Assembly: GCA_903952205.1 (NCBI GenBank)
Contig: CAJBEZ010000022.1
Span: 1 to 64,000, forward strand
Direction of reading: 5' to 3'
DNA length: 64,000 nucleotides
Source: an uncultured Desulfomonile sp.
GTDB lineage: Bacteria; Desulfobacterota; Desulfomonilia; Desulfomonilales; Desulfomonilaceae
Shown here: piece after piece, positions 610 to 19,038 of the stretch
Position numbering within the stretch: the stretch's first letter is position 1
Layout of the letters: each line of letters opens with the position of its first letter
Notes under the pieces: generated by a model
What the model saw: the letters and a program-made list of their open reading frames with translations, nothing else
The model's database searches: none
What the model was told of the DNA's origin: nothing
Position numbers and translations under genes: made by a program

Positions 610-1368
610 ATGTCATGGCTGGAAGAAAAGCCGGAAATAGCCGGAAGAATACTGCGCTTGCTTTACGAACACAAAATGATAAGGACCTTCTTCAGAGACA
701 AAGCGGACGGATGGACTCTTGTTTCGGGTATGTACAGTCCGCTGTATATTCAACTCCGTCCACTATTGTCTTATCCGGAAATTTTTGTAGAAACCTGTTC
801 AGCGCTGTCCAGAATGGCCAAGCATGAGGCCCCGGAAATAAACAGATTTGTCGGCATTGCAATGGCGGGAATCCCAATAGCGGCAGGGATGTGTTACGCT
901 GGAAATTCCCCAGGCTGCTTTACACGCAAGATGGAGGGTGTGAAATCGGTTGAAGGCTTTCGTGAAATGATAGTCGAATACGGTGAGCATTCATTGGTAG
1001 AAGGAGAAATTGAAGACGGCGATCATCTGGCTTTAGTGGATGATCTAGTTACACGATTTGACAGTAAATTGATTGCTTTCGAACAAATCAAACATGAGGC
1101 TGCAGTCAGAGGCTTGAAAAAAGTTTCATGCAGGACCGTTGTAGTGATTTTGGATAGGGAACAGGGCGCTAGTGAAACTGCTAAAGCCACTGGTTTCAAT
1201 ATCATTAGTTTGATTCCATTCAAGAGCATGGGGCTGGATTTGCTCAAGGGAAGCATGCATGACTCTGAATGGCGTGTAATTAAGGACTATCTCAATGATC
1301 CAGAAGCATTTCAGGATCGATCAGTTCAAGAACGTCTAGCTGTTATGGGCATGAACAGGAATCAATAA
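610..1368 (+). CDS. Orotate phosphoribosyltransferase-like protein (PRTase fold)
   Basis: A 252-residue type I phosphoribosyltransferase, most like orotate phosphoribosyltransferases, which make OMP from orotate and PRPP. I chose the ATG at 610 because AAAGGAGG ends 5 bases upstream; an in-frame TTG at 589 overlaps that site and is unlikely. Visible elements are an FVGIAMAGIPIA strand-loop near residue 80, the PRPP-binding segment LALVDDLVTRFDS near 140-151, and a VVVILDREQGA strand near 175, the last typical of OMP-forming enzymes. The PRPP loop departs from the usual acidic-acidic-VVTTGGS form by having LVTRFDS. True pyrE function is therefore probable but not certain. No other pyrimidine gene is adjacent. 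Confidence 0.7.
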   Translation: MSWLEEKPEIAGRILRLLYEHKMIRTFFRDKADGWTLVSGMYSPLYIQLRPLLSYPEIFVETCSALSRMAKHEAPEINRFVGIAMAGIPIAAGMCYAGNSPGCFTRKMEGVKSVEGFREMIVEYGEHSLVEGEIEDGDHLALVDDLVTRFDSKLIAFEQIKHEAAVRGLKKVSCRTVVVILDREQGASETAKATGFNIISLIPFKSMGLDLLKGSMHDSEWRVIKDYLNDPEAFQDRSVQERLAVMGMNRNQ

Positions 1369-1745: not shown

Positions 1746-1946
1746 ATGCCTGGAGTTTATGTCAAAGAAGATGAACCATTTGAAAACGCATTGCGAAGAT
1801 TTAAGAAACAGGTTCAAAAATCTGGGGTGCTCACGGAAACCAAGAAACGCCGAGCTTATGAGAAACCCAGTGTAAAGCGAAAAAGAAAAGCCATGGCAGC
1901 GCGCAAAAGACTCCTCAAGAAATTGAGAAGAATGCGCACCAGATAA
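1746..1946 (+). CDS. rpsU: 30S ribosomal protein bS21
   Basis: A 66-residue, very basic protein beginning [20 protein letters not shown], the standard start of bS21, with the usual lysine/arginine-rich second half ([19 protein letters not shown]). bS21 binds the 30S platform close to the 3' end of 16S rRNA and helps initiation. The ATG at 1746 is preceded by AAAGGAGCC at a good distance; an upstream in-frame start at 1692 lacks a site and would add residues foreign to the family. The gene stands alone, with its own long leader upstream and an inverted repeat just downstream. Confidence 0.97.
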
Positions 1947-3379: not shown

Positions 3380-4381
3380 CTAACCTAGCGCCCCAATTTT
3401 TTCGGTTCTCACAGTTCTTCTAATTTGAGAACTATGTTCCGACAAGAAACTTTCATTTTCTGGGGTTACTTTTTGAATCATCAGGTCTTCCAGACTCTCC
3501 ATACCATGGGCAATAAACGCGTGCGCTATCCATCCTATAGGATTGGCGTTCCTGGCCGTCAAGGCTATTGAGGCTTCCCTGACAGCCCAATGATTTCCAT
3601 TAAAGGAAACCGCAAGCCCTCCTCCAGTCCTGACGAGGCGGAAAGCTTCCACATCAGTTATGCTGTCACCGATATAGAGAACGTTTTCCAAATCCGCTCC
3701 TTCCTTTCTGACGATTTCCCATATCGCTTCAGCCTTTTCCCGGCCTCCTATTGGGTTAACTGACTCCAACAAGGCATAAATGTCCAATTGGGGAAGTTGA
3801 TCCCAGAATAAAGCGTCAAGTTTGCCGATCACTTCCATGTCGGACGCGGACATATCCGAGACCGAGTTGACGCATTCATCTATGGTGACGTCAGGTAGAT
3901 CAATTATTCTGGAGTGAGCTGTTTTGAGGAACTTCTTTTCGGATTCTGAAAGAATGAAGTTATCAAGGTTCATTTGGGTGGAGAAAGTAAAATGGAACGG
4001 AAAACCGATCACATCGCAGACTGCTTCAATGTATGGGGAATAACTTGTGCTGACAATGTATGCTGGGGCAATGTCCTGAATTTGTCTCAAGACCGTGTCC
4101 GCAAAAGGTATCATCTCAATACTGCGGCGAGAAAACTTCTGGATGGTTCTGTCGTCAACTCCAAATGCTTTAAGAAATGGAAGGATTAGCTTTAGAGTAT
4201 CTCCGGCCTTGTACCCCTGTTTATGGGAAATTTCAGCCAGGTAGTCATCATAAAGGCTTATTTTTCGGAAGAAGGCGGAACCTTGTGGCATAAATGCTTC
4301 TGCGAGTTCTGCCGCATTGTCATTTTTTGTAACAGGACCCTCACAGTCAGTTACAAAAATTCTTCTGGATGTTTGTGGCAT
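3380..4381 (-). CDS. HAD-superfamily phosphatase, EhaR-like
   Basis: A 333-residue haloacid-dehalogenase-fold protein. Motif I is FVTDCEGPV near residue 9 and motif IV is LYIGDSITDVEAF near 230-240, both with the Asp pairs needed for Mg2+ and phospho-aspartate chemistry. The start, with DCEGP followed by NDNAAEL, resembles the archaeal family annotated as energy-converting hydrogenase A subunit R; that resemblance is from memory, and the real substrate is unknown. The ATG has a strong TTAGGAGGCGCAA site. It is the last gene of a probable three-gene minus-strand operon after recD2 and the PfkB-type kinase, with a 73-base gap before it. No hydrogenase genes are nearby. Confidence 0.7.
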   Translation of the reverse strand: MPQTSRRIFVTDCEGPVTKNDNAAELAEAFMPQGSAFFRKISLYDDYLAEISHKQGYKAGDTLKLILPFLKAFGVDDRTIQKFSRRSIEMIPFADTVLRQIQDIAPAYIVSTSYSPYIEAVCDVIGFPFHFTFSTQMNLDNFILSESEKKFLKTAHSRIIDLPDVTIDECVNSVSDMSASDMEVIGKLDALFWDQLPQLDIYALLESVNPIGGREKAEAIWEIVRKEGADLENVLYIGDSITDVEAFRLVRTGGGLAVSFNGNHWAVREASIALTARNANPIGWIAHAFIAHGMESLEDLMIQKVTPENESFLSEHSSQIRRTVRTEKIGALG

Positions 4382-8025: not shown

Positions 8026-8181
8026 GCTATCGGCTTCGATAATAAGACGTTCCTTTATGTTGATGAAGATGGTGTTATCGATGGGAAAATAATAAATAAC
8101 GACACCATAGAAGTTATATATAGGCACACTACCCCGGTCGACACAGTTCTGGGAGTAGGGGTTTGGACAAGAAAAAAATAA
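8026..8181 (+). pseudogene. Startless 51-codon coding remnant, unknown family
   Basis: Directly after an in-frame TAG, a frame opens with no start codon and runs 51 codons to TAA. The residues look like real protein rather than noise (FDNKTFLYVDEDGVIDGKI, then VDTVLGVGVWTRKK). A terminator-like hairpin follows about 40 bases downstream, consistent with the C-terminal end of a lost plus-strand gene. I do not recognise the family. Confidence 0.3.
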
Positions 8182-17583: not shown

Positions 17584-17994
17584 TTAGTGATCGTCAGATG
17601 AAGTCTGGCACAATTCCATGAGAATACCGTGAGTAGCTTTGGGATGCATGAAGGCCACGGACATTCCATGCGCCCCCTGTCTCGGTTTTTCATCAATCAA
17701 CTTGATTCCCTTGGCCTTCAGCTCGGATATAGCCTGGTTGATGTCATCCACTTCGTACGCTATATGATGTATGCCCTCTCCGTTTTTATCCAGGAACTTC
17801 TTTATTGCCGAAGAGCCTGAAACATCCTGGAGTAGTTCAACTGAACTATCGCCAATTGGAATGAAGGCTATTTTCATTCCCTGGTAGTCTTCTGTGTGCG
17901 TCACTTCGAGAGGAAGTCCTTCAGTGAAAAACTTCATCGCTGAGTCCAGATCACTTACGGCTACTCCAAGATGGGCTATCCTCTTTATTTTCAT
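17584..17994 (-). CDS. mce: Methylmalonyl-CoA epimerase
   Basis: A 136-residue vicinal-oxygen-chelate fold protein that interconverts (R)- and (S)-methylmalonyl-CoA. The metal-ligand pattern is visible: IAHLGVAVSDLDSAM at the start (His near residue 8), a middle SSVELLQ strand, GIHHIAYEVDDI near 75, and GILMELCQ at the end (terminal Glu). Length is normal. GAGGTTGTC precedes the ATG. Same strand and same neighbourhood as the mutase large subunit and the biotinyl carrier. Confidence 0.93.
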   Translation of the reverse strand: MKIKRIAHLGVAVSDLDSAMKFFTEGLPLEVTHTEDYQGMKIAFIPIGDSSVELLQDVSGSSAIKKFLDKNGEGIHHIAYEVDDINQAISELKAKGIKLIDEKPRQGAHGMSVAFMHPKATHGILMELCQTSSDDH

Positions 17995-18044: not shown

Positions 18045-18317
18045 TTATTCAGAGGCTGTTGCGGCGCAACTGGACGTATCGGTTGAAGAAGTAGAGCTAG
18101 GCTTATCGACTGCCTTACCTGCAGATGATGCCGTGCTGCGCGTTCCATAATCGGTCACATACCAACCCGAGCCTTTAAGAACAAATGTGGACTGGGATAT
18201 CAATTTACTGGCCCTGCCACCACATTCCGAACAACTTTCAATAGGATCATCCGATATTCTCTGCCAAGCTTCAAATTCTTTTCCACACTTCTCGCAGCGA
18301 TATTCATAAACAGGCAT
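18045..18317 (-). CDS. FmdB-family zinc ribbon protein
   Basis: A 90-residue protein starting MPVYEYRCEKCGKEFEAWQ, with a second CSECGG; the two CXXC pairs (Cys8/11 and about Cys29/32) form a zinc ribbon. This is the FmdB/CxxC_CXXC_SSSS family, named from formamidase-regulon and methyltransferase neighbourhoods; its molecular role is not established. The C-terminal third is a low-complexity Ser/Thr/Ala tail ending in a Cys. The ATG has ACAGGAGG. A second, shorter family member is at 39400-39603. Confidence 0.9.
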   Translation of the reverse strand: MPVYEYRCEKCGKEFEAWQRISDDPIESCSECGGRASKLISQSTFVLKGSGWYVTDYGTRSTASSAGKAVDKPSSTSSTDTSSCAATASE

Positions 18318-18364: not shown

Positions 18365-18880
18365 CTAGAATTTCAATCCAGATTCATAGAGATTCAGCAA
18401 CTTGTCCGTATTTTCTACACCACTAAGAATTTCGCTCGTAACTTTGTGAACTACTTTCTCTTCATTGTTGCGATCTTCCTGCGACCCAAAGAAATCAACA
18501 GAGAACCTTCTAAACCGGACAATATGCACAAGTTCGTGAGTCAAGACGAAAAGCCCCAAGGTCCAAAGATCATGTTTGTGAGGTCTGAGTAATGCCCTCA
18601 AGATGGCGGGATCCTGAAGCAATACTCCGTAACATAATGTGTCGTCCTTGACCTGAGCGCTCTTTCGGTTCTTTTTCGATCCAATTCGAACCGTTTGCGC
18701 CAGAACGTTAGAATCTCTCAACCAGGGGGCCGTTTCTTTCCAAGTGAACAATGAATACGGATTCTTGACCCATTCATCTGGGGGCAAGTCGAAATAGCGC
18801 AAAACCAGGCTTTCCGCCAGGAGGGACGCTCTACTGACTGTAAAGCGATCAGACTCGGTGAAAAAACCTTCAGACGTCAT
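18365..18880 (-). CDS. Small HExxH putative metallopeptidase-like protein
   Basis: A 171-residue soluble protein with VLTHELVHIVRFRRF near residues 112-126, a good HExxH zinc motif. A downstream NNEEKVVHKVTSEIL about 15 residues later could supply the third (Glu) ligand, as in gluzincins. A family name is not recognised. Length is close to small minimal metallopeptidases, but no peptidase activity can be proved. AGGTTAAG precedes the ATG. It begins 11 bases after the 29-residue COX24-like gene, so the two are probably cotranscribed. Confidence 0.7.
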   Translation of the reverse strand: MTSEGFFTESDRFTVSRASLLAESLVLRYFDLPPDEWVKNPYSLFTWKETAPWLRDSNVLAQTVRIGSKKNRKSAQVKDDTLCYGVLLQDPAILRALLRPHKHDLWTLGLFVLTHELVHIVRFRRFSVDFFGSQEDRNNEEKVVHKVTSEILSGVENTDKLLNLYESGLKF

Positions 18881-18891
18881 TTCAACTTAAC

Positions 18892-18981
18892 CTATTTGTT
18901 CTTGTGTCTCTGCTTGGCGCGAAGCTTTTTGTGTTTATGCTTGCGCATCTTCTTTCGTCTCTTCTTTATAATACTACCCAT
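18892..18981 (-). CDS. AURKAIP1/COX24-domain-like basic microprotein
   Basis: A 29-residue frame, easily missed by gene callers: MGSIIKKRRKKMRKHKHKKL followed by RAKQRHKNK. The pattern (S)(I/V)xKKRRKKMxKHKxKK is the core of the AURKAIP1/COX24 (mitoribosomal mS38) family, whose bacterial relatives include the small ribosomal protein bS22 of mycobacteria (from memory). A small-subunit ribosomal or RNA-binding role is likely. GCGAGG lies about 5 bases before the ATG, and a promoter-like TTGACA-N17-TAGTAA lies about 30 bases further up. It is followed by the HExxH gene. Confidence 0.75.
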   Translation of the reverse strand: MGSIIKKRRKKMRKHKHKKLRAKQRHKNK

Positions 18982-19009
18982 TTTGACCTCGCCAAATTTC
19001 AAACTATCA

Positions 19010-19038
19010 TTACTATCATCTCATCGGGTACATGTCAA
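19010..19038 (-). promoter_or_regulatory. Possible promoter of the COX24-like gene
   Basis: Read on the minus strand: TTGACA (19038-19033), 17 bases, TAGTAA (19015-19010). The -10 is weak (3 of 6), but the placement about 30 bases before the ATG with a short leader is good. Confidence 0.4.

Follow-up and report, generated by a model that had tools for sequence, protein, structure and literature searches.

We found that a 29-codon gene in the window, by which we mean the whole 64,000-nt stretch of the uncultured Desulfomonile contig analysed here, very probably encodes bS22. This small ribosomal protein corresponds to mS38 of mitochondria and, judging from other species, would sit in a 30S pocket formed by h27, h44, and h45. 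The kind of protein is already known, and the most novel part of the analysis is the set of copies found in phages; what we consider worth following are its distribution among lineages, the UUG starts conserved outside the window's lineage, the phage copies, and the under-annotation. The gene occupies 18892..18981 on the minus strand, exactly where an earlier note on this DNA had placed a 29-residue ORF, with its ATG at 18981 and a stop codon after 29 codons, and its product is MGSIIKKRRKKMRKHKHKKLRAKQRHKNK. Counted from the sequence, 16 residues are lysine or arginine and 3 are histidine, and the protein has what we looked for in a bS22/mS38 member, i.e. about 30 residues, a strongly basic character, and no other domain. 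At 90 nt, the gene is right at the lower length limit of common gene callers. An alternative in-frame TTG at 19002 would give 36 residues, and the ATG at 18981 is preferred because of its Shine–Dalgarno spacing and the homologues.

The GAGG site and the TTGACA that had been noticed upstream are both present on the minus strand. GAGG lies at 18987..18990, 5 nt before the ATG, and across the 16 aligned upstream regions of the family its GAG is invariant and the next G and T are nearly so. The −35-like TTGACA at 19033..19038 is invariant in 16/16 of these regions and stands 14 nt before the TG of an extended −10-like TG-N-TA (19014..19018, minus strand), whose TG and TA are invariant in 16/16 as well. 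The arrangement TTGACA-N14-TG-N-TA matches sigma-70 promoters of the extended −10 type, suggesting that this is the promoter of the gene. A generic promoter scan did not list the TTGACA/TG-N-TA site, and its matches were scarcely above those in shuffled sequences (4 versus 3.0), so the evidence for the promoter is its conservation and not the scanner.

The proposed AURKAIP1/COX24 (mS38/bS22) identity is supported by Pfam, by solved bS22 chains, and by profile matches to mS38, AURKAIP1, and COX24. A Pfam search, which the earlier note had named as a check on this point, matched residues 1–27 to PF08213 (COX24_C) with 29.2 bits and E 8.6e-7, above the gathering cut-off of 23 bits, and returned no other Pfam family at E ≤ 10; in the genome search, PF08213 gave one match in the 4.8-Mb genome (26.4 bits, E 4.7e-5). 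The NCBIfam equivalog NF047430 (ribo_bS22) scored 32.3 bits, 1.7 bits short of its cut-off of 34, and we therefore file the protein under the Pfam superfamily (mS38/bS22) and do not claim NF047430 membership. The current cut-off overlooks the whole Desulfomonilaceae clade, as all seven distinct proteins of the family (7/7) score between 29.0 and 33.8 bits and would be left unnamed by NF047430 alone, and all 34 phylum sequences match this model at E ≤ 0.1. Using the single sequence, phmmer against the PDB found Cutibacterium and Mycobacterium bS22 at E 0.0025–0.026 and mS38 chains at E 0.066 and 0.37. The same search listed chain x of PDB 9j1m, a 66-residue entry that reads as two tandem bS22 copies, at E 1.3e-6. 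With a profile built from the 34 phylum sequences and a limit of E ≤ 1, homology to the solved bS22 and mS38 chains was found, with bS22 at E 1.5e-10, mS38/AURKAIP1 chains at E 5e-5 to 0.0018, and full-length COX24 at E 0.015; human and yeast mS38 are among the chains reached.

Compared with the solved bS22 of M. smegmatis and C. acnes (5o61 and 8crx), the window protein has the same MGSxIKKRRKxM start, size class (33 residues in those chains), and basic core. It differs in being 29 residues long, in ending with RHKNK, and in having RKHKHKKL in place of the KKKHRKL-type letters of the actinobacterial chains. Its presence in the ribosome is predicted by homology. With mS38/AURKAIP1/Cox24 it shares the homologous C-terminal core (profile E 5e-5 to 0.015); the mS38 precursors are longer, 111–200 residues among the matched chains, whereas the window protein is the core alone. 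The bS22 proteins of Borrelia burgdorferi and Flavobacterium johnsoniae are described as short basic helical proteins in the same pocket, and the Borrelia gene was likewise unannotated and has a non-AUG start, GUG (PMC10618245). This likeness comes from the structures reported in that paper, as no chain labelled Borrelia or Flavobacterium bS22 was among the profile matches to the PDB at E ≤ 1. The eL41 protein of eukaryotic and archaeal ribosomes is reported to occupy the same pocket (PMC10085706). No eL41 chain was matched by sequence in the phmmer and profile searches of the PDB, and the resemblance is one of analogy. SRA/RpsV of E. coli, once called S22, presumably shares just that old name with bS22; the window protein matches COX24_C and no other Pfam family at E ≤ 10.

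The usual picture of bacterial ribosome composition derives mostly from a handful of model organisms without bS22. Judging from the solved relatives, the peptide would fold into a bent, strongly basic helix that sits just beneath the decoding centre, where h27, h44, and h45 of the 16S rRNA form a pocket, and would make an additional intersubunit bridge by extending to the 50S subunit; in this position it may stiffen the top of h44 and so bias decoding and initiation. By homology to these relatives, we infer that it binds the ribosomes of this phylum. Several relatives are reported to hold bS22 in this h27/h44/h45 pocket, close to the decoding centre (PMC5876184, PMC10085706, PMC10618245). In Cutibacterium, bS22 is described as contacting h44 and h45 at the neck and reaching 23S rRNA (PMC10085706), and in Borrelia as filling a pocket of h2, h27, h44, and h45 and meeting H68, with its gene given as an essential-gene candidate (PMC10618245). 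In yeast, mS38 is reported to be necessary for stabilisation of H44, and efficient initiation of COX mRNAs to be lost without it (PMC6582356). The earlier note regarded a microprotein of this kind in a deltaproteobacterium, in front of an HExxH protein, as little described. We found no paper on bS22 in this phylum in the open-licence literature; the kind of protein is already well described in Mycobacterium, Cutibacterium, Flavobacterium, and Borrelia (PMC5876184, PMC10085706, PMC10618245).

The 29-codon COX24_C-family gene is real and under strong selection. Among 41 near-relative genomes, PF08213 was found in 16, all within the window's own family (16/18), and in the other family of the same class it was found in 0/23 near-relative genomes and in 0/24 genomes of a fuller search of the class. 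The named records of the window's family include Desulfomonile tiedjei and Desulfomonilaceae MAGs, in agreement with the deltaproteobacterial host assumed earlier, in the old sense of that name. The two family genomes without a match are MAGs that are 81–82% complete; in G008 the contig starts about 20 nt before the match to the HExxH gene that follows bS22 in this family, and in G015 (82% complete) the HExxH match is absent too. All 16 family copies are 29 residues long, with 16 distinct coding sequences giving 7 distinct proteins. Their pN/pS is 0.045 over 120 pairs, compared to 0.38–1.44 in 60 column shuffles, and the variable columns number 10, 2, and 26 of 29 at codon positions 1, 2, and 3. 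A low ratio (0.18) was likewise obtained for one of the antisense frames, which contains stops. The earlier note would have given up the gene had the frame been unconserved in related genomes or its substitution ratios typical of non-coding DNA; with 16/18 family genomes and a pN/pS of 0.045, neither was the case.

The bS22 gene is the first of a run on the minus strand. An HExxH protein of 171 residues (18365..18880, motif THELVH), a putative zinc metalloprotein, begins 11 nt downstream of the bS22 stop and is followed by an FmdB-type zinc-ribbon protein (18045..18317, minus strand; PF09723 64 bits, TIGR02605 74.1 bits) and a methylmalonyl-CoA epimerase (17584..17994, minus strand; TIGR03081 151.2 bits, cut-off 114.95), the gaps in the run being 11, 47, and 50 nt. 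On the plus strand, divergent from bS22, there are an Rrf2-type regulator (PF02082) and a cysteine-synthase-type protein, the latter named from its translation alone. For comparison across lineages we used 80 named loci, the best 80 of 194, which were chosen by HExxH and not by bS22. In Desulfomonilaceae the clearly linked part of the run ends with the epimerase, which is a conserved neighbour in 14/80 named loci. The HExxH, zinc-ribbon, and epimerase genes are probably neighbours transcribed together with bS22 and not parts of a bS22 machine. FmdB lies near HExxH in 73/80 of the named loci, groES in 47/80, and groEL in 47/80. Outside the window's family a common order is HExxH, FmdB, groES, groEL (47 of all 80 named loci), and genes of HflK/HflC type stand on the other side of the HExxH run in 41/80, these gene names being read from translations.

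The HExxH protein occurs in 136/296 genomes of the phylum, yet has no match in Pfam or NCBIfam at E ≤ 10 and no PDB relative by sequence. Across 18 aligned sequences its HExxH motif never varies, nor does an EE farther downstream, and its predicted structure has a pLDDT of 81 and a pTM of 0.80. Foldseek with this model returned nothing at E ≤ 0.001 (best E 0.14). The best VIA-align matches were YbeY, at Z 8.9 with an rmsd of 3.9 over 132 aligned positions, and selecase, at Z 8.6 with an rmsd of 4.0 over 107, scores near the range that VIA-align calls middling. The model thus suggests a small zincin-like metalloprotein; naming the fold as YbeY, minigluzincin, or SprT-like was dropped, as Z scores of 8.6–8.9 are too middling. 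YbeY is an rRNA-processing enzyme, and we do not claim a link between it and the HExxH protein.

The synteny with the HExxH gene, to which the earlier note had drawn attention, proved to be real and conserved, but neither obligate nor of a single form, with two orientations and adjacency in 9/49 genomes that have both genes (seven families, counted by eye). In Desulfomonilaceae the spacing between bS22 and HExxH is 6–11 nt in 16/16 loci. Within the best 80 of 194 HExxH loci, bS22 runs in the same direction in 13, all with ATG, and is divergent in 41, and hence is present in 54/80; in the other 26 there is no bS22 in the stretch examined, some of these stretches being cut by contig ends. Across the 296 phylum genomes, 49 have both genes, 33 have bS22 alone, 87 have HExxH alone, and 127 have neither, giving a Fisher odds ratio of 2.17 and p 0.004, not corrected for relatedness. 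HExxH as an obligate partner of bS22 was rejected, as 33/82 bS22 genomes lack HExxH and 87/136 HExxH genomes lack bS22. The linkage may reflect shared ancestry, and the shared neighbourhood in two arrangements is compatible with either shared control or old synteny.

These data bear on what else the gene might be. One could suppose that a bS22-derived basic microprotein has left the ribosome and binds RNA or DNA in the service of the HExxH operon, e.g. as a regulator or substrate, as it is the first gene of the HExxH run in Desulfomonilaceae (6–11 nt apart in 16/16 loci) and a divergently oriented neighbour of HExxH in six further families. We regard this as improbable, since each gene is often found without the other (33/82 and 87/136 genomes) and the core matching solved bS22 is kept whatever the neighbour. 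A translated leader peptide, with coupling or attenuation of HExxH translation as its sole role, would suit an ORF this short that ends 11 nt ahead of the HExxH start. Against this, the amino acids themselves are kept although synonymous sites are almost saturated, and other families carry the same protein at unrelated loci, which makes such a leader very unlikely.

A similarly slight probability attaches to a secreted antimicrobial peptide. C. acnes bS22 added externally is reported to inhibit bacteria and cell-free translation (PMC10085706), but this activity also fits a ribosomal peptide supplied from outside, and the window protein starts straight at the ribosomal core, leaving no room for a signal peptide. 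That the ORF arose by chance might be considered from its 90 nt and its richness in lysine and arginine, but this is refuted by the pN/pS of 0.045 against 0.38–1.44 in column shuffles and is also at odds with a Pfam match above the cut-off, and we give it next to no weight.

Within the phylum, bS22 is patchy and split at the family level, with 16/18 against 0/24 inside one class, a clean split that offers a natural experiment on bS22 function. PF08213 is found in 82/296 genomes (75/278 of good quality; 62/199 genera), so that this decoding-site protein is carried by 82 genomes of one large, mostly anaerobic phylum, with one match per genome except in G234, where a second match runs to the contig end. 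A profile from these sequences, which is not independent of the PF08213 search as it was built from the sequences found in that search, recovered the same 82 genomes and none further at E ≤ 0.05, and the gap below the weakest genome (44 bits) makes presence clear-cut. Its absence from the other family of the class (0/24) indicates that bS22 is dispensable for the ribosomes of that class. Mutual exclusion with bS21 was rejected: bS21 is present in 283/296 genomes, and being nearly universal in the phylum, it and bS22 are not replacements for each other. The window itself also carries a bS21 gene (1755-1913, plus strand; PF01165, E 5.5e-21).

We also compared 16S rRNA with bS22 presence. A 16S gene was found by search in 64/296 genomes, the window's own genome not being among them, and 53 genomes with the 16S 3′ part, 15 of them with bS22, entered the comparison; relatedness was not controlled, and G220, which belongs to a genus otherwise with bS22, was counted as negative. 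Among these 53 genomes, no 16S position in the reported pocket follows bS22 presence cleanly, and the strongest associations are at positions 1163–1173, outside the pocket, again with relatedness uncontrolled. The pocket pair 1511–1524 is G–C in 15/15 bS22 genomes compared to 24/37 others, with relatedness uncontrolled and G220 counted as negative.

The start codons of bS22 differ between the two arrangements. The 41 divergent genes (L063–L127) start with TTG in 38, ATG in 2, and CTG in 1, all with a Shine–Dalgarno-like stretch, and in 12 of them an ATG or GTG stands in frame no more than 30 codons upstream. As a control, the FmdB genes at the same loci start with ATG in 40/40, and groES does so in 34/34, though the start-choosing rule favoured ATG. 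A phylum census of 80 loci gave 65 ATG, 13 TTG, 1 CTG, and 1 GTG, with three loci read by eye as ATG; three genomes of the window's family lie outside this census and all three have ATG. In E. coli, rpsT also starts with UUG, and its product touches helix 44; autoregulation through that UUG is described as believed but unproven (PMC10931766). We infer feedback on bS22 through its UUG start in the lineages with the divergent arrangement. The window gene, with its ATG start, falls outside this proposal.

We then scanned a virus collection with a bS22 profile and DNA patterns, and bS22-like frames were found on 12 contigs (L264, L265, L266, L269, L267, L290, L291, L293, L296, L268, L272, and L286). 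The 96-nt genes of L264, L265, L266, and L269 are identical; in L264 the gene lies at 3554-3649 (plus strand), in L267 at 631-726 (minus strand), and in L268, which is the same contig as L263, at 8034-8129 (plus strand). PF08213 scored above its cut-off in 6/7 virus records searched and 15.9 bits in the seventh. T4-type replication genes are present in four records, those of L264 (helicase phrog_19, 3.7e-64; primase phrog_47; also a tail protein), L267 (helicase, 7.5e-65; single-strand binding protein), L268 (clamp loader phrog_168, 8e-81; sliding clamp, primase, and also ribonucleotide reductase), and L272 (helicase, 1.7e-55; primase). A phrog_2859 neighbour is common to L264, L267, L290, L293, and L296, and in the clade with this neighbour pN/pS is 0.106 over five distinct bS22-like genes. 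L293 also carries Hsp20 and a WhiB gene (PF02467, 47.5 bits); WhiB being an actinobacterial protein, the host is probably an actinobacterium. Leaving the tandem entry aside, the L264 peptide has Cutibacterium bS22 (E 1e-7) as its nearest solved relative. Pattern matches on L270, L271, L273, L285, L287, L288, L289, L292, L294, and L295 were rejected as not bS22. A second profile scan of the virus collection yielded no confirmed bS22. Two phage bS22 peptides gave no tblastn match among INPHARED phages, a search weakened by the low-complexity filter and the short query. In the open-licence literature we found no paper on phage bS22, and none with both words bS22 and phages; the term 'S22' does not occur in the main text of a survey of viral ribosomal proteins (PMC6375957).

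The phage peptides may enter host ribosomes. If phage copies of bS22 are confirmed, the ribosomal proteins known from viruses would come to include one of the decoding site. As a joint reading that is tentative and falls somewhat short of probable, we propose that bS22 is not a fixed part of the ribosome but a component of the decoding site that can be exchanged and regulated. Whole families would gain or lose it; in the divergent-HExxH arrangement (mostly Desulfobacterales-type) its synthesis would be throttled by a conserved UUG start, and feedback would arise if, as may be the case, ribosomes loaded with bS22 read that codon differently. T4-type phages, one clade of which probably infects actinobacteria, would bring a bS22 of their own, maintained by purifying selection, with which to rebuild the decoding site of the host during infection. 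The frame on L286 (5146-5187, minus strand) has no ATG, GTG, or TTG start and apparently begins with ATT. The viral status of this 87-kb contig is uncertain, and genes of TnpB and IscB type lie beside its bS22-like frame.
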